Of a stretch of DNA of 64,000 bases, positions 1,709 to 61,870 are shown one piece after another (the first letter of the stretch is position 1; each line of letters starts with the position of its first letter). The notes under the pieces are model-generated. The model did no database searches, was not told the origin of the DNA, and saw only the letters and a list, made by a program, of their open reading frames with translations. This DNA comes from Engraulis encrasicolus (Eukaryota > Chordata > Actinopteri > Clupeiformes > Engraulidae): the NCBI RefSeq assembly GCF_034702125.1, contig NC_085860.1, forward strand, positions 21,680,484 to 21,744,483, written 5' to 3'. The translations under genes were made by a program, and so were the position numbers.

Positions 1709-12138
<10,430 letters not shown>

Positions 12139-44206: not shown

Positions 44207-47200
44207 GTGAGTAGTATCGCTGATTCTATAATGGACAGTGCATTGAACACGGTGACATGGCTATATGAAGTGACATAGACTTGTAAAAGCCAGTATGCTG
44301 TAAAACATTGCAAGCCAGTTATATGTAAAAAAAAAAATGAAGTTGCCCTGCTGCCTTAAAGGAACAGTCCACTCCTTTTTGATTTTCACATATTTGCAGT
44401 ATTTCTAAGTATGACTCAGGAATGTGCATATGTAATTTTCTCAGTGTGTTCAGTACTTAGATTTATTAGTATTAAATATATTAGCTTAGCTTAGCATAAT
44501 TACTGGAAGTAAATGGTAACTTCAGCATCAAGCCACAAATAATCACTGGATGGAATCAAATTGCCGTTTTGCAGTCTGGTGAATTTTACATTCATTTTAA
44601 AGTGGTTTAACAGTACATCTGATGATATTTTATTTTGTACCGTAGACTTACATTGCTACACCGAATATGGCTATACTGTTAAACTAGGCAATGCAAACAA
44701 ATAGAGAAAAAAAATCCAATATCTTCTCATATTTTTCCAGGGCTTCCTGAAGTTTACAAGTTAACTCAACTCGAGGTTAACTCAAGTTGAGTTAACTTAC
44801 ACACTTTAGGCAGCAGAACAACTTTCTGTTTTACATATAACAAATACAGTTAATAGTGCCACCACAACAGTATTTTCTACTCTCAAACAATATCTCCGAG
44901 GTTATCATTCTGGCTTCTGTCAGACACTGACACAGACCTAGGGTCCCTAGGGTTCACGATATTCTTTTCAAATGTACATCAATCAAACACAATCATGAGG
45001 CCTTAGTTGTAGTCTTTGAAATGTTGTGCAATTTTAAAGACAAATGTTACACCATATTATAGTCCAAATGTTACACCATATTTGACCAGTCTGCAATATT
45101 TTAACTGCACATTGGAGACTGGTCAAACACAGTGTCAATCTTCTGTGTTAAGCCTGTTACATACAGCAGATTTTTGAAAATTAATATTGTACACTTCAAC
45201 TTTGACTTTTGACTGCTGTACCTTTACAGGTGTGTTCTCCGGAGTTGACCTGTGCTGCCAGTTGAACAACTCGGCCCACCACACGGAGGAGATTGACACG
45301 GAGCGTCTGCTGGTGCGTAGGGGCCAGTCCTTCGCCCTCGCCCTGCGGTGCACCGGCAACGCCCCCCGCGACCCCAACTACTCCTACTCACTCGTCCTAC
45401 GACTGGGTGAGTGCATGAGTCCACAATAACTTTACACATACACTGTATTCCCCAACAGTACTATGAACTAGAAAAGTTTACGCTGTAGTACTCAATATTG
45501 CAAAAATGTCCAGATGACATACACATTTTAGGTGTTCTCAACAGGTTTTCAGGTACCAATAAATTAACTCTGGTTGGCATTGTGTTTTTAAGTACAACTG
45601 ACATCCTAACACAATGTCTTTGAGTTTGTAAATTGGAGCTCTATCTGGCATATGAGTGGTTAGATGTCTTGACAACAGCTGAGGTGACCATGGAGTAGTG
45701 GTTAAACAGCTGGTCTTCAACCTCAAAGGTTGCAAGTTCAATCCCAAACATGAAGATAACCTTACCTACTTCCATACTTCCTGGAACATGGTATGAAAAT
45801 GTTCAGATGGCCACCAGACCCATGACTCCAGATTTAATTAGCCATATTTTTCACATTTAATTTCGAGCAAAATTACAAAAGAAAAATGCTTAGGTAAAGC
45901 AAGACAATGTTTGAGCTGCTGTGGTCTGGATAGGGAAATGGCCACAAGATCAGAGGATTGCAGGTTTGAATCCTGTATTACCAATAAAAAAACACTCAAG
46001 TAGATATTTATTGTTTATTTTTCGCGAAACTGTGAAAGTTACAAATTCTTTAAATCATGTCAATTGGAACTATATCTGACATATGAGACTATGGATGTCA
46101 GCATGTTGTGCTTGGGCAGTCACAGCAGCACGGGATGTTAGTAAAAAAAAAAATCACATTCAAACATTATTGTTTTGGTATGATGTCAGTTGGCCGGATT
46201 TGTAGTGGAAAGTATGTGAAACACATTTGACTGTTAGTTATGAGTAAGCCCAATACTTTCTAACAAACAGGGCTACCTTTCTACAAAGATAAAACCTGCA
46301 GTTGAGTAGTGTAGGGGATAGTCCTCTGCATGTAGCCATATTGGCATGTCCTTATCTTGAAGTTGAGAGTTCGAATCCTAAGAATGGGTCACTCACTTTT
46401 TTGGTTGTTTTTTAGTTTTTTTTTTTTTATTTATTGTTTACCAGCTTCTGCTTTGTGTAAAGAAGAATCCATTCATGTCAGAACCATAGAAACCCTATTT
46501 TATTAAAATGTAACATAAAATACAAACTTCTCTAAAAATGGTGAATCTGTCAATGGGGGATAGATTTACTCAACACCATGTGACCATCAAACTTTTTTTT
46601 TTTTTTTTTTATTTTTTATTTTTTTATTGTTGCAATTAATTCTCATTACATTACAATTCTCAATTCTCTCTACATTACAAATATGGGTATCATTGTAGAA
46701 AGAGAGACATAAAACAATGAACAAACAAAAACAAACAAAACAAAAAACAAAAAAAAGACACATCTACCACAGAGATTTAAGACTAGGACAGTAATTTCAT
46801 TTCTACACATATGTAAGGTCTGTTATATTAAATTGTATATAATATTTTTAAGGGCAACAGCTTTCTTGCTTTTCATTATATTAAGAGAATTACAGTATGC
46901 ATTGAACTCTTGTTTAAAAACTATAAAGTGAGGGAATGTTTTTAGAAATCTATTTTTATGTATAAAGAATTTACCTAAAATAATAACCACATTCACCAAA
47001 TAATTCTCGTCTGAGTTTCCCCTTGTGCTACCAAGTAGAATTTCTTCAGCTGTAAGCCTAGGCCCAGGTATTGCCAACCAGTTCTTCACCGCAATCCAAA
47101 AACTTTGTGTCACAATGCAATCACTGAAAATATGTACAGTTGCATCTATTTCCCTTTTACAAAACAAACACAGTTCTAAGTCTATATTAAATCTATGGTG

Positions 47201-50200
47201 TAACAATTCTCTTGATGGATAAATGTTATTCATAGTTTTAAAATGCACCTCTTTTGCTTTTGGTGAAATTGGAAACTTCAAATATTTAGTCCTGAGTGTG
47301 ACTAACTGACTTTCAGTACAAGAGGTTGCCTTCCTTATTGTTCTCCCCGGGTGAAACTCTTCTCTTAAGCATTCTCTGATAAAGTTGTTTGTACTTTTGA
47401 TATCTAGTAGATGCACACCTTTCACATTTAAATCAGGCAACTTGGGAAGTAAACTGTCATATTTCAAATCGTTTTGGATAGNATTAATCAAACATTCAGG
47501 GATAGCTTTAATGACCTTGTTAAATTGGCGTTTGGGTGGAAAAAAAGCCATACTTAACACAATACAAAATGACTCGTAGGTGAAAATGTTCCCTTGAGCA
47601 TCCAAAATATTCAATATGGACCAAATATTTTTTTCCTTCCATTCTTTTATGTACAAGGATTTACGACTCAGAGTAACATATCTATTGTTCCAAATCGGGA
47701 AGAAGGGGTGTGAAGTTGTGCTTGTATATGAGCTTCCAGTACATTAGAATTTGTTGGTGAAAGTCTGACAATTTGATGGGTAATTTTTGAAGTGGCAAAG
47801 TCACATGACATGAGATAAGGCAAAAACCACCAACTCTATTAAATATCAGTCTGGTATACAGTACCAAAAGGCTTCATTGTTCTTCAAATACTCCTTAATC
47901 CAGTTAATTTTAATCATGCCATTTAAACAGTTAAAGTCGATGACTTTTAACCCCCCCCCCTTGANGTCTTTTACAATGTATGCTTTTTGTAAATAGTGGG
48001 TTTTATTTCGCCATACAAAGCTGAAAGTAGCCTGATTAACCGCTTTGATTTCATCTTTTGGGATGGCCAAGGAATGTGAGGGATAGATGCATCTAGATAA
48101 TAAAAATTCCATTTTGTTAGGTACACCCTGCCAAAAACAGACAAGTCTCTTTGCTGCCATATATCCAGCCTAGTTTTCCCCTTCTGAACGGTATCTGTTT
48201 ATGTTCAGCTTGACTCTTCTCTTTTTGTCATTGTTATGTGAATGCCCAAAATATTTCAATTCCTTTTTAACTGGAATACTATTAATGACCAATTCATCAC
48301 ACTGTTTGATAGGCAATGAGCTCACCAACTTGGCAATATTAAGGCGTAAACCCCTGAGGCTTTTGGAAAATATTTCAATCCGCCTTAATCGCCTCTGGGA
48401 TTTGATATTTATCCTTTCAAAAAAAATTGTTGTGTCGTCCGCTAACTGACTTATTATGAGTCTGTATCAAGTACACGGAGTGCAGCTAGTTCTGTGTAAT
48501 TTTTTTATATGAATAGCCAACATTTCTACTGCCAAGATGAATAAATACGGGCTAATTGGGCAGCCTTGTCTTACTCCTGCTTGAATTGGAAAACGTGTAG
48601 TTGTGCCACTGGGAAGAGACCACACTATTTATGTCTGTGTAGCATGTCTTGACAAAGTTACAGAACCCATTACCAAAACCAAAACATTCAAGAGAGTGAA
48701 AGAGGAAGTTATGTTCTAAGGAATCAAATGCTTTGAAAAAATCTAAAAAAGAGAATAAACCCTTCATCTTCTATCATGTCACTGTAATCTATAATGTCCA
48801 GAACTAACCTGATGTTATTATGTATAGATCTATTCTTCATGAAGCCTGACTGAGACTCACTAACACATTGTTCAATACCTGTTTTAGCCGTTTGCAAAAA
48901 CATAAGTTAAAAATCTTGTAGTCTGTAGTGAGAAAAGTGTAATAGGTCTTCTATTATCTAAAACCATTGCATTTTTCCCTGGTTTAGGGAATAAGTATTA
49001 TAAATTCCTTGTTTCATAGATGGTGAAAGTGTGGGACTGTTAAGTATTTCCAGAAATGTGTTGAAAAGACAATGGCGTAAGACTGGCCAGAAGTGTTTGT
49101 AAAAATTGGCAGTTAAGCCATCAACACCTGGGGATTTTGTTAATTTTAATTTTACCAATAACAGCATCCATTTCTTGAATTTGTAAAACTCTCCATCACA
49201 AGTGTCTCTGAATACATCCTGTAATTTGTGGAATATGTTGTTTAATACCCTCAAAAAAATTGAGAGTCTCAGTCTCTGAGCCCTTTGAAGTATACAGTTG
49301 GCTATAGAAAGTTAGAATCTCTTTAGAAATCACCCTTTGATCCTTGCATAGGTTATTGTCAATCAATAATGATCTTATTTCAATTCTTTGCTGTCTGTTT
49401 TTTTCAAAGTCGACAAAAATATGCTGAATTTTTTTTCCCCCTCTTCTATCCATCTAGCCCAGATCTAATATAAGCACCCTTTGCTTTTTTGGCATACATA
49501 TCATCCAACTTTGTCTGCAATGACAATAGATTGTGTTTATCATTGTCAGTAAGTATGGGTTTGTTGCATGTAGTGTTCAGCTCTTTGATGAGTTTCATTT
49601 CCTCCTGTCTTTGTGACTTTTAAGCCTTTTTGCTATAGTCAATTGAATATTGTCTTATTTTATATTTACAGAACTCCCACTTCAGTATGTATGAGGAAAA
49701 ATCCTCCATATCCATAACCTCTTTTATAAGTTGTTCAACCCCAGTGCAGTAACCGTCATGTGAAAGTAACGCTGAGTTGAATTTCCAGTAACCCCTATAA
49801 TGAAATTCTTGTTCAGGGGGTTTCAGTACCAGCGAGATAACTGAATGATCCGTTAATGGAGCTACTGACATGTTAATATCAGCTACCAGACCTAAAAGAG
49901 GGTCTGATAGCAACCAGTAATCCAGCCTAGACCTATGATTCCCATTTGGTTGAAACCAGGAAAATTGTACCTTGTTACCATTGTAATGCCTCCATGCATC
50001 TTGTATCGCATTTGAATGGCAGAATTCTTGAAATGTCTTATTTGGTGTGTGAGTGTTGCCTCTTGGAGGAGCTCTATCCAACCATTCATCGTTCACCAAA
50101 TTCAGATCCCCTCCTACCAAAACATTTTCACATTGGTGAGATAGTTTGCATCTCTCTAATTCGGTTGACAAGTCCTTTAACAAGTCCAAATTTTTCTGTT

Positions 50201-53200
50201 TGTTGTTGTACCCATACACATTCAGTAAAATGAGCCTTGAGTCATTAAAGTCCACCACTGCCATCAACCAATGTCCATGTTCGTCTGCCTTTACCTGTAA
50301 GTATTTCCCAGGGCAGTTATGTGACAGAATTGCCACTCCTCCTGACCGTTCTGTGCCATGACTGAAAAAAATCTTCTCTCCCCATTGTTGTGTCCAAAAC
50401 GACTCATCCTCCCTCATAGAATGAGTCTCCTGCATAAACGTGAAAGTACTTTTCTGCCCTTTGCAAAACAAAAACAAAGCTTTTCTTTTCGTATTGTCTT
50501 TAAGTCCTCTTACATTTAGAGAAATAACAGAAACATCTGTGGTAAATGACATACACAAAATGAATGAAAAGATAAACAAATAAAAGGATAGAGCCCAACG
50601 GGCTAACCTAGTGGCTTTAACTCAACCTCCTGCCGAAACTTGGGGTGTTTTTTTTACCTTCAGCAATGCCCCTAGTAACCATTTTCTCCCTTAACGTTTA
50701 GCTTGGTCAGCTGCTACCGTTCACCTCTCCTCTATTCCCGAATGCGTTGTCCGTTGATGAATCCGAATGGTCCTCTGAAGAACGCCTTCATTCCCTGCTG
50801 TCTGGCAAGCTCAATCTTTGGCCAGAGCACACTGCGAGCGTCGCGTTCCGCCTTGGTGAGGTCCTCTTTGAAGCGAACCCTCATCTCGGCGCACACCCGG
50901 TCTTCCTTCGCTTGTTTCCAAAGTGCGTCGCGGTGGGTTCTTGAGATGAATTGTAAGATGACCTGACGAGTCTTTCCTGGAGTCGGTTTCCCCAGTCTGT
51001 GAACGGTGCCCAGAATTATGTCCATTTTTTGTGACCATCCTGGCATCATCTTTGAAATTAGCTCGGCTACCGCCTCCCGGGTATTCTCTCCTTCTGTCTC
51101 GGGGAGCCCATTCAGGCGGAGGTTCCACCGTCTTTGGTATCGCTCCAGTTCCTCGGTTTTTTCCTTCAGTTCACGGTTCTCTTTCTGTAGCTCCCGTACT
51201 GCCTTTTCAAGCACTTTGGTCTTCACTTGTCCCTCTTTAATGTTCGCGGAGTTAAACTCCGCTGTCTTTGCGACATTAGCTATCATGATGTTGTTCTGTT
51301 TTAGCTGTGTACCAAAGTCCTCTACTAAAGCTGTTAAGTTCTGGATAGCCGCTAGCACGTCAACATTTGACACGGTTTCATTCATTATTTTCGGCATTCC
51401 CCTCTGTTTCTTGGCCGATACATTGACATTGGATGGAGGGCTGTGTTGTCGTCTTCTTACCACAGCGCAAGCTGCATCCATCTCCTCAGTTTCTTCTTGG
51501 AGACCGTCAGCGTTATCGTTAGCTCCATTCGCCGTTGCAAGGCTCACTTCGGCTCCAATTTCCAAAGTGGAATTTTTTTCGCTTCCAGAGGTTTCAAAGT
51601 CGTGGAACATCATCTTTACGGTTTTAGCTGACAAGATTGAGGTAAAATTTTGAAGAATATTTTAATTTTGTTCCAATTTGGGGCTAGGCTTGCAGAGCAT
51701 ACGAAAGGCGCGACTGCTCAGCACGCCATCTTGCCGGAAGTCCCTCCCATGTGACCATCAAACCACAACTGACAACTTGGCATGGAAAAATGTGTCTATC
51801 AACCTCACTTCAAGGTAAGAAAAGACTCATAAAAGTGTGTTGATGTGTATGTGTAGTAGTTTACTATGTTGCTGCTGTGTGTGACCTTAGGTGCTCTTGA
51901 TGCTACACTGTGTGTATGTTATGTTAGCAACTTAGCTTAGAATGTTAGCTAGGCTAGCACTGTGTAGGCCTTTCATACAAATCTTTTTCTTGTATCATAC
52001 ATCTGCAGTGTATTTGCAAGTGATGCGCTGCATTTTCATGATGACATATTGCACATTGAACTTCTGTTCCTCATGAAAGCCTTAAACTTATTAGGCCTAT
52101 TTATGCTCCACAGGCAGCCGATATGGGACCACCAGAACTCTATGATCCATCAGCTCTACTCAACACTCCAAAGGATAAACAACTGACTGTGTTGTGAAGT
52201 CTGACACTATTTTGGGAGAAATGTTATTGTAAGTTAGGCTATATGGATCTCCTTCAGCCACCAACTCCTAATAAAAGATTCAGAAATGGACAACAAATAA
52301 ATGACTAAATTGCCTAATGTGTTGAGGTTGATTCTTTGTAATATATTGACTGTTGACTGTATAGACTGGGTCTAAATTTTAGAACAGATTGTTGTGTATT
52401 GTATGATTGTTGTGTTAGTGTCTACTGTTTTTGTTTGTCAACCACATGGAACAAAATAAAAAAAACTTGATATAAAGCATTGCTCACGTTTGTGGAATTA
52501 AAGCTCATGTTATATTTGGTTTAAACAGAGGGGTGGTAGCCTAGTGCATTAGTATAAACCAACCAATCAATAAACCAACCAAGATTTTTTTGGGGGCTTT
52601 AAAATGGGAAAACATAAAACTTTTAATTTTGAAATCAAAAACTTATAGCCAATATAGCTAAACAATGCCGTGCTTGTTTACTTTAAAATTGTAACTCTCT
52701 GCTAAGTACTAATTGCATTCATTTTTGCACCATTCTCGAAATATTTATGTCAATGGAGCATGTTAGATCTTTGAGTAGCACATACTAAAACATTCAAGAT
52801 TTTATTTTTTCTCATAACATTTGTTTTCACATAACATGTCTGATTTTATGTAAGACTTACGCAAACGTTTTAGTTTTCAACTCAAATCTTTTGTGTAAAC
52901 CATTGTTTCTGTGCATTTTAGAGTTTGGTGTACATACTTGACTTGGGCTGCTAAAAACTAAAAATCTAATTATGGAATTAATGTTTTCAATCTTTTCAGT
53001 CATTTCAAAGTTTTTGATCATCTTCTTAAAGATTTTGTGTCCTGCATATGCATGAATGTATGTAGTATTTACGTTAAACATTTGGTCACAAAACTAAAAC
53101 TTTAACGGGAATAAGTTTCCACAAAAGTTTAGAGTTCGTGGAACATGTTGGGGTTTACAGTGTAGGTGGGCTCAGTTAGGGACGACGTGGTACTAGAGCT

Positions 53201-53498
53201 CTTCCGCTTTGCCCTACTCGACAAAAAATGGGCTATTGAACGTTCTTTTTTGAATGTTTTTTGTCACAATGCACTGTGGAGATGATACAGTATACGGACG
53301 TGTGAAAAGACACATGGTAATGGCATCACATTTCTCATCATTCGAGAGTTTCGCCAAGATTGCACAGAACTGGTCTTATTGCACCGCATTTCTATAATAA
53401 ATGCTCTTAAAAGGAAAGAAAGAAAGTTTTAACAGAAAGTACTGTAACATTACAAACAGCAAGCTGCAATGTTTATACATTGTTACATCAGTTTGTGT

Positions 53499-53567
<69 letters not shown>

Positions 53568-53582
53568 CATGCGTGCATTTGT

Positions 53583-53617
<35 letters not shown>

Positions 53618-54791
53618 CCTGCGTGCATGTGCGTGTGCATCCCTGCGTGCGTGTGGGCATGTGTTTGTGCATGCCTGCGTGCGTTTGTGTATGTGTGTGT
53701 GCATGCACGCGTGTGTGTACTGTGTATGTGTGTGGATGTGTTTGTGCGTGCGTGTGTAAACGCCTACGTGCGTGTGTGTGTTTGTGTGCATGCGTGCGTG
53801 TGTTTGTGTGTGCCTGCGTGTGTGCATGCCTGCATGCCTGTGTGTGTGTGTGAGCTTGCGTGCGTGTGTGCATGTGTTTGTAGGTGCATGTATGCATGCC
53901 TGCGTGCGTGCACGCGTGTGTGCATGCATGTGTTTGTGCGTGCGTGTGTGCATGCCTGCGTGCGTTTGTGCGTGCGTGCATGTGTTTGTGTGTGCATGTT
54001 TGCATGCCTGCGTGCACGTATGTGTGCGTGTGCATATGTGTGTGTGTGTGTGTGTGTGCTTATGTGTGTGTGCTTGTGTTTGTGCATGCATGTGTGCATA
54101 CCTGTGTGTGCGTGTGCGTGCATGTGTGTGCATGTGTTTCCGCGTCTGTGTGTGTGTGCATGCCTGCATTCATGTGTGTGTATATGTGTGCATATGTGCA
54201 TGTGTTTGTGTGTGCGTGTGTGCATGTGTTTGTGTGTGCTCGTTTGTGTGCCTGTGTGTGTGTGCGTGCATGTGTGTGTGTGTTTCTGCATGCCTGTGTG
54301 CATGTTTGTGTGTGTGTGTGTGCATGTGTTTGTGCGTGTGCATGCTTGCGTGCCTGTGTGTGTGTTTGTGTATGTGCGTGCGTGCCTGTATGTGTGTGTG
54401 TGTGCATGTGTTTGTGCGTGTGTGTGAGTGAATGTGTGTGTATGTGTGTGCGTGTGTGTGTATCAGCATGCATGTGTGTGTGTGCGTGCGTGCGTGCATG
54501 CCTGCATGCCTGTGTGTGTGTGTGTACCTATCTGTGCAGGTAACCAGGAGACAGTGAAGGTGTCCTATCGGCAGTGGGACCCAGCAAAGTGGTGGTTCAG
54601 CGTGCAGGGAGGCCAGGGTGAGATGTTGCTCTCCGTCTACAGTCCCCCGGACACCCCCATAGGCAAGTACAACTGGCCCCTCTCCTGCTCTCCTAGACTG
54701 CATTCTAATAATAATAATAATAATAATAATAATCTGGACGCTCCATAGGCAAGTACAGCCTGGCATGCTCCTGCTCTCCTAGACTGCATTC

Positions 54792-54827
<36 letters not shown>

Positions 54828-54856
54828 TAATAATAATAATAATAATAATAACAATG

Positions 54857-54907
<51 letters not shown>

Positions 54908-55639
54908 TGGACGCCCCCTGTAGGCAAGTACAGCCTGGCCGTTCTCTTGGTCTCCTCGGACGGACACATCATGGAGGAGACGGCCCCCGAGAGCTTCTAC
55001 CTGCTCTACAACCCCTGGTGCAAAGGTGGACTCACATCACATCACATTACACCATATTACATTGCATTTGGCAGACACTTTATAACCAAAGTGACTTAGA
55101 ATCAAGGACATAATCATTGCCAACATTATTAACAGATACAAAGTGCACAGGAAATATACAGAACAACAAGTGCAGGCGCAAAGTCACTCTCAGAAATAAA
55201 GGTACAGAACTCGTCACTGAGGCAGTACCGTCAAGGGGAGTACCATTGCGTCGCTTGATTGGTACCCCAAAAAAGAGGTGCGTTCAGTTTCTTGCAATGT
55301 CGACCAATGTGCATCTGTCACGTTTTTTTGAGGTACCACCCAAGCGACGCAGTGGTACTCCCCTTGAGGGTACTGCCACAGCGACAAGTCCTGTACTGTT
55401 ATTTCTGAGAGTGGAGTTATTGTTTTTTAAGTAAAGTAGAGTACAAACATGTACACATCATATCACTGTGGAAAGAGCGAATTCACATGGGGCAGATCAG
55501 CATCTCTCTCTTTCTCTTTGTCTTTCTCCCTCCGTCCTCAACACTTGCAAAGGTGATGCGTGGGCTCGACAGTGTTCAAATCAATTGCATACATTTATTT
55601 GATGTGGACACAGCAAAATTACATGGGACAGAGACCAGA

Positions 55640-55797: not shown

Positions 55798-58009
55798 AGT
55801 CGCGTGCATGTGGCAGGGGCACCGCCAGAAATGTTAAGGGCCCCTGTCAGTGCTGTCAGTGCTTGGGCCCTTAGAATCTTTAAATATATTTTTAGGGACT
55901 TTTATGCCTTTATTTGACAGGACAGTCGAAGATGGTGACAGGAAGCGAATGGGACAGAGAGACAGGGGAGGATCGGGAAATGACCCCGGGCGGACTCGAA
56001 CCGGGGTCCCCATGGGTGGGCATGCAAGCCCAAATGTGGGGGGCTTAGTGCGCTGCGCCTCAGCGACCGGGGGCCCTTAGAATCTTTAATACCTTTCCTC
56101 TCCTAGCGTCACCCATGGGTGGATGGGTCCTTTTTAGGTTGGGACCTTGTTAGGTTTTTAGTGTTTTTCAGTAACAACACAGTCTATGTACCGCATTAGG
56201 TGCAATGGAGCAAATGGTGTAACAGCTATGTAATATCATGCGCTAGAGTTGCACTTTCACCATGAATTTACAGGACTGATAGTATTCAGGCTCCATGCCT
56301 GATTTCAGGCTTGACAGAGTTTGCAAAAAAAACCCCAAAAAAACATTGATAATAATTAGCCATTAGGTTATTCTTATCTCAGAAAGTGTTACAGGTTCAG
56401 GGTTTTCTTCTACTATCAGGCTTGAATAATGATCATACACAGGCTATTAAATGTTTGAATAATGTGTCAAAATAGGCCTACGTTACTTCACTATGTAGTA
56501 TCTTGTCGTCGTTAGAGCAGGGAAAAAAGGTCAGGTTCAGGATTTTTTTTCACTATCACCCCTGAATTTACATTCACTTTAACTATTACTCTTGACACCT
56601 TTGGTTGTTTCCCCCTGCAGCTGATGCGGTGTATCTGCCAAACGATGTTCACCTGAAAGAGTATATCATGAATGAGAACGGCCTCATCTACCAGGGGGAC
56701 GCGGACGAGATCACCTACAGGCCTTGGAACTTTGGACAGGTAGGCACACGACCTGCTGTGGCCTAAGGTTTTTTTTTCTTCAGTCTTTTCCGAGATTCTG
56801 GTCATTGTAATGGGGGCAGGTGTGTGTTTACATTTCAAAAAAAGCATTTTTATTTATTCCCAAAGACATCGAAAAGGTTATGCAACATCAGCAGACAACT
56901 AGCAAACAGCGATACCTTTTGGGAAAATATTTGGAGTAGGCCTACAGTATGATATTTAAAAAAAAAATGTAAACAAAAGGTGCCCCCATTAGAATAGCTC
57001 ATACATCGGAAAGGGCTGAGCCCTATAACACCCTATAAATAACTAAGTCGCTTTGGATAAAAGCCTCAGTGTAGTGTAGTGTAACAATGTAGGAATGTGA
57101 GTCACGGGAGCATCTCAGATGCAAAAGAGAGAGAGAGAATGAAGAGAGAGAATAGGCAATTAAACAATGGCTTTAGTTGCCAAACGCAATATGACCAAAA
57201 CCAGTTTAAGAATATTTTTGATTATTTCTGTAGGTAAGTAAATACTGTATGTGCTTTACTATGAAACATTTTAGGAACAGTAGCCCCTTTTTTAAAGCAC
57301 TAGATCAGTGTGAACGGGCATATCATATTTTACACTACTGCTGCAAACCACAGGCAGACACAAACAAACACAAGCCAACTCTCCATCATTGTCACCCGTT
57401 GACAGTTCGAGGAGGATGTGGTGGACATCTGCTTTGAAATTCTGGACAACTCAAACTCCACACTCAAAAACCCTGAGATGGACCTCCAGAACCGGGCCGA
57501 CCCTGTATATGTCAGCAGAACCATCTCTTGCATGGTAAGCCTGAAAATGAATCAATAAACTATAAATGTACTCTGAGAGTGCAGAGCTCCGCCAAGGAAG
57601 CTGTTTGATAGAACATTTGACTATGCAACACCCTATTTGTTTTAAAGTCTTTCTGCCTTCTTTTTGTGAAATTAGAAACTGGAATGTCAAAATTCTGTAT
57701 CCCACAATGGTGAAGAATAGTTTAATAATTCCTGGATCCAGATCGTGATCCGGAGCACCACCAAAATGTAGTCACTTGTTCCTTTTGTCCCTTCCAACAA
57801 CCCTGCAAAGTTTCATCCAAATCCACTCATAACTTTTTGAGTTATCCTGCTGACACACAAACAAACAGACAAACCAATGCGACCAAAAACATAACCTCTT
57901 TGGCGGAGGTAAACATAACCTTGGCGGAGGTAATAATACCAGTATTGCATTAAAAACAATGGAACACAAAGTAAAGTGTGTGTGTGAGAGTGCGAGTCTG
58001 TGTGTGTTG

Positions 58010-58884: not shown

Positions 58885-61870
58885 TTGTAACTAATCTTGT
58901 GGTGATTACAATAATGAAGTGAGACTTTATTCCGTTTCAAGCGTTTACTAAATTAAAGAACTTAACATATTTACAGCGAGTGGTTGGCTTGAATTGTCTG
59001 CATCCTTAACCTTAAGAATCACTGTGCGTATGACGTAACACGCACAATGTCCCATCATGGGTTTAAGGATTTAAGAGCAAGATAATTATCTTTGTAAACC
59101 AAGCAAGAAAGGCACTTTCTGTCTTACTAACAAATAGACTGTATTTCATGCAAAGAAGAGAGTCACCGGAGCATCTTCAGATGTGGAAAAATTACTGTTT
59201 TATTGGGAAAGTGCCAAGACTATACTGTATATATGTGGAAAAGTTACCCCCTTGCTAGACTTTTCCCCAAATGTTCCCGACGTTGTCCCTGCACTTAACT
59301 GACAAACATTTCCCGACACATGCACACACCTGCACGCGACACTCGGCAAGTTCATCACACGCGATACCGGTTTAGCGCGTTTTGAACCCATTCATATTTC
59401 ACCCTCACGTAGCGTTGCCCATATTTCTGTACTCACCAGTTTTCATCCACAACATCTCCGCAAGCCGCGAGGTACCCGCTGGTTTTGCTCCATCCAACAT
59501 TTCCACCACAAACACCTGTAGTCCCACGCCATAGCACCTACACTGAACGCATTCACTTCCTTGTTGTGCGCCCCGCCATCAATGGTCCCCCGAGAAGCTT
59601 CTTCTTCTTCTTCTTTTTGAGTTTTTAATGGCGGTTGGCAGCTTAGCGAAAAAGCAGCATTACCGCCACTTGCTGGGCTGGGGTGTGGATGCAAGAGAGC
59701 CTATTCTGAGCCTAAGCTGGGAAAGAAAGGGAAAAGGGGAAAGAGAGAAAAGAAAAGAAAAGAAAAGAAAAGGAAAATAATAGTAGTAATAATAGTAATA
59801 ATAATAACAAAACAAAACAAAACAAAAATTCAAAAGAAATTATGAGGGTAGCACTAGATTCTGTTGATAAGCCCTGTATCCCTCAGAAACCTAAACACAT
59901 GGTTGAAGCAGATGTGACCAGAGCCTAACTTTAAAATCTCCTTTAGGTTTAGTCTTAGCTTAGCCCTTCTGAGCTGCTCTATTAGAGTCTCCCTTTCTGT
60001 CTGATAGCATGGACAGTGACAGATCACATGCTCCAGTGTTTCTGGACTATCACAGAACTGGCATTTACCATCTGCGTGCTTCTTCATAATTGCAAGGGTA
60101 CTGTTAAGCTTAGTGTGTCCAAATCGCATTCTTGACAGTGCATCTTCCTCTCCCTTACTCCTGTTCGATGATCTGCATCTTTCTAGCTTGTCTTGGATGT
60201 CATGTAGATGTCTTCCTGTTACCTCACTGTCCCATAGGGATTGCCATTGCTCTCTCACTTTATGCTTTATAATGCTTTTAATTTCAGCCTTGCTGTAGTC
60301 TATTTCCAGGTCTACTTCGCTGTTGCTAGCTGCCTCCTTGGCAACTTCATCGGCTTGTTCATTACCTGCTACACCTATATGAGCAGGTACCCACACAAAC
60401 GAGAGGTTGGCACCCTCTTTTTGTAGCACGTCTGAGACTTGTGCTATATTCCACACTATATCTTGTCTGGATTTTGACTGCCATGTTTTAATACTGATCA
60501 GCGCTGAACTGCAGTCTGATGCAATAACTGCCTTCTTCGGTCTGTTCTTCTCCATCCACTGCAAAGCCAGCCACATAGCTATTAACTCAGCTGTGTATAC
60601 TGCTAGATCATCAGGAATTCTCCTGCCCACTTCAATTCTGAGTTCTGGGATAACAAATGCCACTCCAACTCTCTTGTCAGAGAAACCCGAGCTGTCAGAG
60701 TTGCAATGTTTTTGTATTTTTTGTTTGATGACGTGTTTGGTAATTGCAGTTAGGGTTCCAAACTAGCGATAGGAAAGAAGAAAATATATTTTTGATAACT
60801 GAAAATATGTGTAATGTTATTAGGATTATGGTATGTTTAGTTTTGTTATGATTTATTTCTTTATTGTGTTAATTGTGTTGTGCACCATTCTCCCGCCACT
60901 TTGTAACGACGTGACTAATGGGTAGTCCCATAAATAGGCGGCGCTTTTGCCATTCTGGAGAGAGCGGCGCAGGGAGAGCAGCTTGCTGTGAGGCTGAGAG
61001 AGTACTGGTTTGTGGACATTTAACCCTTTGAATCCCGATTAGTTTTGTATTTGATTATTTTGAAGTTTATCATTTCAGTTTGAACAACCCTCGTGTTGAT
61101 TTTTGTTTGTAGCCTTTTTGAAAGTTTTTGTTTATCACTTTTTAGCACTGTAAGTAAACCAGCACTCCTACTATATATATTTCACCCAAAAGGAGAATAT
61201 CAAAGGTGGGAGTATTTAGGGTAACCTTACAATTCTTCAACACCAAAGGGATACGTCATAAAACAGCAAAGGAAGCCATTCAAGAGAGGGGGGGGGGGGG
61301 GGGTTGCAGATCAGACTACAAAAAACGTATTTCATTTACAAACAAATAAACAGACAGTATTTCATGATCACCTAGGTTGAACTTTGATGAAGGACTGAGC
61401 ATCTTAAATACAATATGTTTGGGAGCATAGAACAGTGCAGCGAACCTTTATCGTTTCCTCAAGATATGACTTATAATCATAATAATGATGATAATAATAA
61501 TAATAATAATAATAATCATAATGATGATTTTATTTGTATAGCACAAAATCATACATAAAATGTAGCTCTAAGAGCTTAACAAACAGATTAAAATCCATAA
61601 AATAATCCACAATTAAAACAATAACCAATACCCATGTATAACTGACATTGCATGACATGTTACTGCATTCCTTTCCTTCCTCCGGGCAGGTGAATGCTAA
61701 CGATGACAGAGGAGTGCTGTTGGGGAAATGGGGAGAAGGGGACTACCATGGATGTGTGCCCCCTACCCGCTGGAATGGAAGCGTGGACATTCTCAGGCGC
61801 TGGAGTGACGGCGGCACAAGGCCTGTCCGGTATGGGCAGTGCTGGGTGTTTGCAGCGGTGGCCTGCACAG
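44194..61870 (+). CDS. Transglutaminase 2 (tandem paralogue, TGM2/TGM5-like), 5' part of gene
   Basis: Seven coding pieces: 44194-44206, 45230-45406, 54540-54662, 54924-55025, 56621-56739, 57406-57534, 61690-61870 (844 nt, 281 residues), continuing past the window. The start ATG GCT GAC CAA fits the family start and follows a TATA box. The N-terminal beta-sandwich ([51 protein letters not shown]) is followed by the core through the catalytic Cys at residue 272 (codon 61840-61842, GQCWVFA). The beta-sandwich exon that is unbroken in known vertebrate TGMs is split here by a 261 bp GC-AG intron. The gene is in tandem with transglutaminase 1 and shares its exon lengths and intron sequence. Exons for His, Asp and the C-terminal barrels were not found before 64000. 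Confidence 0.92.
45230..45406 (+). CDS. Transglutaminase 2, exon 2
   Basis: 177 bp, acceptor CCTTTACAG, donor CTGG|GTGAGT. It carries the family motif [20 protein letters not shown] and ends in YSLVLRLG. Confidence 0.94.
46823..50579 (-). pseudogene. LINE ORF2 (endonuclease and reverse transcriptase), broken
   Basis: The APE-type endonuclease (50579-49620) is readable: [46 protein letters not shown]. The frame stops at TAA 49620 and has further stops and shifts. The RT follows in pieces: [17 protein letters not shown] near 49100, [14 protein letters not shown] near 48740, LADDTTIF near 48440. A 277-residue C-terminal open frame (47656-46823) carries the [18 protein letters not shown]ys/His knuckle. 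Undetermined bases at about 47482 and 47966 lie inside it. Confidence 0.88.
50732..51634 (-). CDS. LINE ORF1 protein (L1 ORF1p-like, coiled coil plus RRM), intact
   Basis: 300 residues without interruption. It has a disordered, acidic N-terminus, then a heptad-rich coiled coil at about residues 120-185 ([19 protein letters not shown]). RRM-like [15 protein letters not shown] follows at about 190, then the C-terminal domain GTVHRLGK...RQVILQF. This is the architecture of L1 ORF1p, an RNA-binding trimeric chaperone. The start is 113 bp from the 5' end of the element. Selection on it is not implied, since ORF2 is dead. Confidence 0.85.
   Translation of the reverse strand: MSAKTVKMMFHDFETSGSEKNSTLEIGAEVSLATANGANDNADGLQEETEEMDAACAVVRRRQHSPPSNVNVSAKKQRGMPKIMNETVSNVDVLAAIQNLTALVEDFGTQLKQNNIMIANVAKTAEFNSANIKEGQVKTKVLEKAVRELQKENRELKEKTEELERYQRRWNLRLNGLPETEGENTREAVAELISKMMPGWSQKMDIILGTVHRLGKPTPGKTRQVILQFISRTHRDALWKQAKEDRVCAEMRVRFKEDLTKAERDARSVLWPKIELARQQGMKAFFRGPFGFINGQRIRE
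53501..54530 (+). repeat. 1 kb TG-rich cryptic repeat abutting exon 3a
   Basis: Pure (TG)n at the left grades into TGTGTGCATGCCTGCGTGCG-like units. It runs to within 10 bp of the splice acceptor at 54539, so there is no normal pyrimidine tract. All open frames in it are artefacts of the dinucleotide repeat. Confidence 0.9.
54540..54662 (+). CDS. Transglutaminase 2, exon 3a (5' half of the split exon)
   Basis: Begins after CTGTGCAG, where a 1 kb TG-rich tract runs right up to the acceptor. It encodes [40 protein letters not shown]. Reading on without splicing meets a TAG in the next repeat copy, so the exon has to end here, at ATAG|GCAAGT. Confidence 0.85.
54663..54923 (+). other. Duplication-derived GC-AG intron inside a conserved TGM exon
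   Basis: 261 bp between ATAG|GCAAGT and CCTGTAG|GCAAGTACAGCC. The TAGGCAAGTACA core occurs three times (54660, 54746, 54921). The first two copies share about 45 further bases (to GACTGCATTCT) followed by (AAT)n. The third is the true coding continuation. Removing it as a GC-AG intron rebuilds DTPIGKYSLA with no change. Confidence 0.75.
54705..54906 (+). repeat. Two (AAT)n tracts inside the GC-AG intron
   Basis: (AAT)n at 54705-54733 and 54792-54906, separated by the second TAGGCAAGT copy. Confidence 0.95.
54924..55025 (+). CDS. Transglutaminase 2, exon 3b (3' half of the split exon)
   Basis: 102 bp, phase 1 to 1. It encodes [20 protein letters not shown], then [13 protein letters not shown] and donor AAAG|GTGGAC. 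Together with exon 3a it gives 225 bp, near the size of the single exon in other vertebrate TGMs. Confidence 0.88.
55185..55413 (+). mobile_element. Foldback MITE in intron 3 of transglutaminase 2
   Basis: Ends CACTCTCAGAAATAAAGGTA and complement-like TACTGTTATTTCTGAGAGTG; inner arms around GGGGAGTACCA. Confidence 0.75.
55644..55796 (+). repeat. (CT)n then (CA)n compound microsatellite
   Basis: CT at 55644-55688 and CA at 55714-55795, in intron 3 of transglutaminase 2. Confidence 0.95.
55884..56070 (-). mobile_element. tRNA-derived SINE, full length
   Basis: Perfect 19 bp target duplication GGGCCCTTAGAATCTTTAA (55865-55883 and 56071-56089). On the minus strand: A-box-like TGAGGCGCAGCGCACTAAG, B box GGTTCGAGTCC, body and AAATAAAGGCATAAAAG tail. 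The best preserved member here; inside intron 3 of transglutaminase 2. Confidence 0.85.
56621..56739 (+). CDS. Transglutaminase 2, exon 4
   Basis: 119 bp, acceptor CCCCCTGCAG, donor GGACAG|GTAGGC. It encodes [20 protein letters not shown], then [20 protein letters not shown], matching ADAVYL...IYQGS...PWNFGQ of TGM2. Confidence 0.95.
56778..57021 (+). mobile_element. Foldback MITE after exon 4 of transglutaminase 2
   Basis: Imperfect inverted arms, both containing TAATGGGGGCA and TGTTTACAT. A left-arm copy is at 27617-27675. Confidence 0.6.
57406..57534 (+). CDS. Transglutaminase 2, exon 5
   Basis: 129 bp, phase 0-0. It encodes [20 protein letters not shown], then [20 protein letters not shown] and SCM. 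It is the paralogue of exon 1709-1837. Confidence 0.95.
57572..57934 (+). mobile_element. RTE-type LINE 3' tail or derived SINE
   Basis: Contains GTGCAGAGCTCCGCCAAGGA at the start. Near the end it has AACTTTTTGAGTTATCCTGC, then ACAAACAAACAGACAAACC and CATAACCTCTTTGGCGGAGG. These are familiar from RTE-family 3' ends in fish. Non-coding. Confidence 0.55.
57975..58091 (+). repeat. (GT)n/(GA)n microsatellite
   Basis: GT tract to 58058, then GA to 58091; borders the LINE fragment. Confidence 0.9.
58090..58550 (-). pseudogene. LINE 3' fragment (L1/Tx1-group-like)
   Basis: A minus-strand frame 58504-58214 reads [20 protein letters not shown], then [20 protein letters not shown] and [10 protein letters not shown] recognise this as the tail region (AIWLTRK, VEY.YY.L, WCVGG) of a fish LINE ORF2, though the clade is uncertain. 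Truncated at the 5' end. Confidence 0.5.
58577..58882 (+). repeat. (GA)n and (CA)n flanking an intron block shared with transglutaminase 1
   Basis: (GA)n at 58577-58659 and (CA)n at 58787-58882. The 125 bp between them (CTGGGTCTGCCAGCTATTGG and on) matches 3260-3380 in transglutaminase 1, which is also flanked by (GA)n and (TG)n. Confidence 0.9.
59596..60760 (-). pseudogene. I/Nimb-type LINE, 3' fragment with RNase H domain
   Basis: A 269-codon minus-strand frame (60663-59854), readable in frame a further ~30 codons upstream, encodes an RNase H fold ([51 protein letters not shown]). A C-terminal [20 protein letters not shown] knuckle follows. RNase H plus this knuckle is typical of I-clade LINEs. 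The 3' tail ends in a GAAGAAGAAG repeat on the minus strand (about 59596-59610). The 5' end is truncated; it lies in intron 5 of transglutaminase 2. Confidence 0.82.
61690..61870 (+). CDS. Transglutaminase 2, exon 6 (catalytic cysteine)
   Basis: 181 bp, phase 0 to 1. It encodes [20 protein letters not shown] through [11 protein letters not shown] to [14 protein letters not shown]. It is the paralogue of exon 5039-5219. The following exon is not found before the window ends. Confidence 0.95.

Follow-up and report, generated by a model that had tools for sequence, protein, structure and literature searches.

Tandem duplication of an exon segment that carries AGGT is an accepted route of intron gain and has been shown to work in vivo, as the available extracts of two reports describe (PMC3443670, PMC4974935). 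For Drosophila, the corresponding extract names a cryptic AG/GY motif as what the duplicated piece of exon requires (PMC2891723), so a GC donor falls within the model. GC donors make up less than 1% of donor sites and, in the excerpted part of one survey, adhere more closely to the remaining consensus (PMC2490688), and a partly available paper describes the GC-AG introns of human and mouse as tending to be shorter and to have weaker sites (PMC7242645). Intron gains have also been reported, in the extracts at hand, from ray-finned fishes, with those of notothenioids coming from putative transposons (PMC12357937, PMC3151243); the available portion of PMC5896119 makes no mention of GC-AG introns. 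Few of the intron gains in vertebrates have a legible source. We describe here a transglutaminase exon in which the source is still readable in the DNA, and which is probably split by a GC-AG spliceosomal intron gained by exon duplication in the ancestor of two paralogs, B and C; splicing, the order of events and the mechanism of duplication are the parts of this reading that we infer.

The window, the whole 64,000-nucleotide stretch that was analysed (C4:21680484-21744483 of the 1.43-Gb genome of Engraulis encrasicolus), contains transglutaminase gene B from position 45229 onward, with exons 2-6 inside it and exons 7-12 beyond its end. The spliced protein of exons 2-8 is matched by Pfam Transglut_N and Transglut_core, the solved structure nearest to exons 2-3 is the red sea bream transglutaminase 1g0d (E 9.8e-33), and exon 6 carries the active-site motif GQCW. 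An Rfam scan of the window at gathering scores gave no match, nor did six peptide patterns of the gene when compared with viral contigs. A TG-rich repeat of ~1 kb (53494-54525) ends 14 bp upstream of exon 3. On the minus strand, a region of intron 2 (46826-51661) holds long open frames (46826-47743, 49623-50621 and 50735-51661) whose translations resemble LINE parts by eye, and a 302-codon open frame at 59857-60762 resembles, also by eye, a remnant of an RNase H-type retroelement.

Features of gene B and of its exon 3 insert, in window coordinates.
Feature	Positions	Strand	Remarks
Exon 2, start of Transglut_N	45230..45406	+	acceptor tttacag/GTG, donor CTGG/gtgag; Pfam PF00868 on spliced protein
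Exon 3, left part, ending ...DTPI-G at ATAG	54540..54662	+	
Predicted donor TAG/GCAAGT	54660..54668	+	first 11 intron bases the same in B and C
Proposed GC-AG intron, 261 bp	54663..54923	+	paralog C: 197-bp insert, same site
Insert unit 1, 86 bp: exon-like start, AGACTGCATTC, (TAA)n, then TGGACGCTCCATAG	54663..54748	+	
(TAA)n tract 1	54706..54733	+	
Middle AG/GCAAGT, a putative acceptor abutting a putative donor; possible zero-length exon, candidate recursive splice site	54747..54754	+	
Insert unit 2, B only; exon-like start, then intron-like; possible chimera	54749..54923	+	C has one unit
(TAA)n tract 2	54792..54907	+	
Decayed copy of exon segment GGACACCCCCATAG, now GGACGCCCCCTGTAG; would supply the acceptor	54909..54923	+	
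Exon 3, right part, GKYSLAVLL...NPWCK	54924..55025	+	donor AAAG/gtggac
Exon 4	56621..56739	+	
Exon 5	57406..57534	+	
Exon 6, carries GQCW	61690..61870	+	

A preliminary description of this DNA had placed a 261-bp interruption, bordered on both sides by AG/GCAAGT, at 54663-54923 of exon 3, and these coordinates and borders are confirmed. The left part of the exon closes with ...GACACCCCCATAG at 54662 and the right part opens with GCAAGTACAGCC at 54924, while the insert itself begins with GCAAGTACA and ends with CCCCCTGTAG, giving GC...AG. The string TAGGCAAGTACA occurs at 54660, 54746 and 54921, and AG/GCAAGT accordingly stands not only at the two borders but also in the middle of the insert (54747-54754). 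An 86-bp unit is present in 1.9 copies (54657-54819), the two (TAA)n tracts account for about half of the insert, and its GC content is 0.28 versus 0.60 for exon 3. The further claims that reading through meets a stop and that removing 54663-54923 restores frame and protein also held: a TAG at 54746 closes a frame that is open up to 54745, and the protein without the insert aligns to 1g0d with no gap across the junction. The predicted spliced junction joins ...GGACACCCCCATAG to GCAAGTACAGCCTGGCCG... within exon 3. The bases around the 54662/54924 junction recur in the middle copy; what tells the two apart is the stretch that starts at GGACACC on the left side and extends beyond CCTGGCCG on the right. 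Any duplication restores the frame exactly when it is removed, so the restored frame is no independent proof of splicing.

The insert had been taken as newly arisen, which in the narrow sense is not supported by comparison with the rest of the genome, and it is not confined to gene B. A 19-base pattern was found at three places, two of them in gene B and the third at C4:11294360, which is exon 3 of paralog C, 10.4 Mb from B. Exons 2-12 of gene C were found, and its insert lies at the same codon, measures 197 bp, runs GC...AG with AG/GCAAGT on both sides, and consists of one unit that is mostly (TAC)n. Repeats and microsatellites are error-prone in assemblies, but a separate locus with the same arrangement and many differences makes an assembly error scarcely credible as the source of the insert. 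Over the 11 exons common to the two genes, 611 codons could be aligned, with dN 0.086, dS 0.189 and omega 0.46; these values do not include exon 1 (no such exon was recognised), exon 13, the diverged 3′ end of exon 7 or the codons at a number of exon borders. With the same insert present in paralog C, its origin most likely lies before the separation of B and C (dS 0.19), and it would then be older than first supposed. Exon 3 gives no sign that the intron passed between B and C by gene conversion, its dS of 0.177 being close to the 0.189 of the whole, although an old conversion may have taken place.

Reading through the insert ends in a stop in both genes, at 54746 in B and, in C, at the TAG that belongs to the acceptor, as would be expected if the exon were broken and B (and C) were a pseudogene or encoded a truncated protein. 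This alternative, which the preliminary description had also named, is improbable, with two intact and constrained paralogs sharing the insert. Neither gene has a stop or a frameshift over the 11 shared exons, omega is 0.46 as given above, exon borders are splice-like in both by eye, and exon 13 is open in both, also by eye; moreover, with an insert that predates the split, both genes would have been dead since then. When neutral substitution was simulated (2000 runs for each gene) at half of dS per lineage (0.095), 0.1% of the runs for B and 0.5% of those for C ended without a stop, and at about half that rate, 0.05 per lineage, the values were 2.9% and 4.1%. The lengths of the inserts, 261 and 197 bp, are 0 and 2 modulo 3 in B and C, a difference that argues for removal by splicing in both. 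Most likely, B and C both remained in use with the insert in place, and splicing would be the simplest account of this.

By site criteria the insert would be classed as a GC-AG intron of U2 type, with a GC donor that is otherwise near consensus and an AG acceptor. Pairing GT or GC donors with AG acceptors, on condition that the intron be at least 60 nt long, the frame be kept and no stop remain, yielded 78 pairs in B and 60 in C. Two donors in B match the consensus at 7/9 positions, GC 54663 (TAG/GCAAGT, with mismatches at -3 and with C at +2) and GT 54618. Seven pairs with donors of this quality keep at least 74 residues, and only GC 54663 with AG 54923 yields family sequence; the products of the other six contain poly-isoleucine stretches. 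The homologous GC pair is ranked first in C. The first 11 bases of the putative intron are identical in B and C (11/11), compared with 15/23 of the next 23 (Fisher p 0.027). Gene C has TACTAAT with the predicted branch A 30 nt upstream of the acceptor. Within 130 nt of the acceptor in gene B, no YTNAY branch motif was seen, only TNA cores, and the missing nearby YTNAY is a point against efficient splicing of the predicted intron in B. The GC donor counts against the reading as well, such donors being a weaker class (PMC7242645).

An intron whose main splice form differs from the one proposed is unlikely, be it that GT 54618 serves as donor, that the middle site is used in part or that exon 3 is skipped. 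GT 54618 equals the GC site at 7/9 donor positions, but the corresponding dinucleotide in gene C is GC with 6/9 positions matched, and the 15 residues between donors 54618 and 54663, which would be lost by use of the former, are identical in B and C. The middle AG/GCAAGT is intact, but by arithmetic excision of unit 1 alone would leave 175 nt and a shifted frame. Skipping of exon 3, at 225 nt, would be frame-neutral; against it stands the constraint on this exon, which is modest: over 74 codons, 10.5 of the differences are nonsynonymous and 7.5 synonymous (p 0.025). When the first 12 codons are dropped, p becomes 0.064; the 23 codons left of the junction give 0.047 and the 34 codons to its right 0.13.

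Whether the insert was gained or inherited was judged from the other transglutaminases of the same genome. A Pfam-based family search gave 17 matches, seven of which reach exon 3, one of these being gene C; the other ten, which include exon 2 from both B and C, are exon 2 or weak pieces. The exon 2 on C6 and the weak pieces on C20 and at C17:15450430 showed no exon 3. The six remaining genes with readable exon 3 lie on C9, C10, C14, C16 and C17 (two), and by eye in each of these paralogs from the fish's own genome the exon runs unbroken to NPWC (NTWC in one) and then to a GT donor. An unbroken exon in 6/6 other readable genes favours gain over loss. An old intron retained in B and C and lost elsewhere would be compatible with a comparison set made up of paralogs of one genome, and extra introns occur in some family members, at places that the available part of the source does not give (PMC11152450), but copies of the exon flanking the intron are not expected on this account, and together with its absence from those six genes this renders it very unlikely. 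A further copy, paralog A, is a tandem transglutaminase at 1709-9308 of the window with exons 5-12 open, and compared with B over 445 codons it has dS 0.24 and omega 0.39. No exons 2-4 of gene A were seen in the 40 kb upstream of the window, and none in the genome searches could be assigned to it; gene A, a conceivable source of the exon copies in the insert, is perhaps a 5′-truncated copy.

The derivation of the insert from its own exon was gauged by comparing alignment scores with those of 2000 shuffles. The strongest match is that of unit 2 of B, past the 8-nt donor core, to the exon of gene C, where 22 of 25 columns are identical, with two mismatches and one gap; its score of 33 was reached by none of the 2000 shuffles, the best of which scored 22. 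For gene B's own exon, one shuffle in 2000 was as good against unit 1 and one against unit 2, and for the intron of C against the exon of C seven were. The 3′ end compared with the left exon (GGACRCCCC) was equalled by 7/2000 shuffles in B and by 207/2000 in C, where it is not significant alone. Two other parts of the insert were rejected as exon copies: AGACTGCATTC, which 1646/2000 shuffles matched in score, and the (TAA)n tracts. Exon-like sequence makes up ~33 nt of the 5′ end of the insert and ~15 nt of its 3′ end, with a middle of (TAA)n or (TAC)n filler, and the putative intron thus appears to be built as exon copy, filler, exon copy. The original proposal of a GC-AG intron made from its own exon by tandem duplication is consequently upheld as the most likely one for the sequence around AG/GCAAGT and for the ends; it does not extend to the filler, nor to AGACTGCATTC, which had been among the pieces considered duplicated.

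The non-exonic middle bears on how the intron was born. A staggered double-strand break, whose repair captured (TAA)n filler and whose ends were filled in to give the flanking repeat, is a real possibility, though one that we lean against; it stands against tandem duplication followed by microsatellite growth, concerns the birth of the intron only, and overlaps with our main proposal. Short direct repeats around inserted DNA are a described mark of the repair route in the extract available (PMC3443670), but the repeat here, at ~45-50 nt, is much longer than short, and a search by exact 22-mer did not find a source for the filler. This 22-mer, taken from the start of the filler, also served to look for a repeat dispersed in the genome, as a transposon-derived intron would contain; it occurs at two places, both in the insert of gene B, in an exact search that missed even the diverged filler of C. 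A 13-mer common to B and C, TGCATTCTAATAA, is present in ten of 39 loci, all of them loci that span one or other insert.

Tandem duplication of the exon would have required a segment that carries a usable donor. In exons 2-12, the coding part of gene B that was scanned, there is a single AGG[CT][AG]AGT, which 40 of the 1345 possible windows of 47 bp contain; exons 5-12 of gene A have none (0/970 windows). Its single occurrence in B means that the duplication captured the sole strong latent donor there. In another family member (C9:8176598-8176777), GGGCAAGT stands at the same Gly-Lys site (VVGKF), without a preceding AG and without an intron; the motif is one that recurs, at this locus, as a putative latent donor.

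We propose that a GC-AG spliceosomal intron arose in the gene ancestral to B and C when ~45-50 nt of exon, including the strong latent donor AG/GCAAGT, became duplicated and AT-rich filler came to lie at the junction. The upstream copy would have become the donor and the downstream copy the acceptor, and the spliceosome would remove filler and duplicate together, leaving the protein unchanged. After B and C had separated, unequal exchange between the exon and its intronic copy would have produced the second unit of B. At the informative columns this unit is exon-like at 10 and intron-like at 18, 27 and 34, which suggests, from four columns only, that one unequal exchange could explain it, and the single unit of C fits. 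Features of tandem-duplication gain found at this site are a duplicated exon segment with AGGY at both borders (its 3′ part being short and, in C, weak alone), a coding sequence unaltered by removal of the insert, and a site that is intron-less in relatives, namely 6/6 other genes of the same genome. With only the ends exon-like and filler in the middle, this would be a variant of such gain and not its pure form.

More tentatively, the steps taken together may describe a restless young vertebrate intron, derived from a duplicated GC-donor proto-splice site, in which filler, repeat exchange and deletion all have a part; we regard this as possible rather than probable. Microsatellite filler would have lengthened the duplicate and lowered its GC content, making it spliceable. 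Recombination between the flanking exon repeats could then add further units and with them, as in B, an internal zero-length exon; the reverse exchange could delete the intron exactly. B and C would record one birth event, with C as the simpler form, so that its steps can be ordered. A GC-donor case is permitted by the AG/GY form of the tandem-duplication model, and the locus raises the question of how a coding duplicate gains enough intron body for splicing.

Four described systems can be set beside the proposed transglutaminase intron. In the vertebrate ATP2A1 gene (Hellsten et al. 2011, as related in part of PMC4974935), a duplicated exon segment likewise gives donor and acceptor at homologous places and the coding sequence is likewise unchanged after removal; unlike ATP2A1, the transglutaminase case has a GC rather than a GT donor, non-exonic, AT-rich filler as the larger part of the intron, and a later gain of a unit in one paralog, and its splicing is a prediction. 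The new intron of the potato RdRp gene (PMC4974935) also came from a tandem duplication, is AT-richer than its exon and was accompanied by a further tandem duplication in the same gene, but there the duplication spans an old intron-exon border, which was the source of the acceptor signals, and RNA reads confirm splicing. The tandem-duplication introns of Drosophila share the cryptic AG/GY and differ in belonging to an insect and in the GT donor of the example visible in the available extract (PMC2891723). Direct repeats flank inserted DNA in the Daphnia introns attributed to double-strand-break repair, as they do here, but compared with those described in the available part of that report (PMC3443670) the flanking repeat of the transglutaminase insert is much longer.
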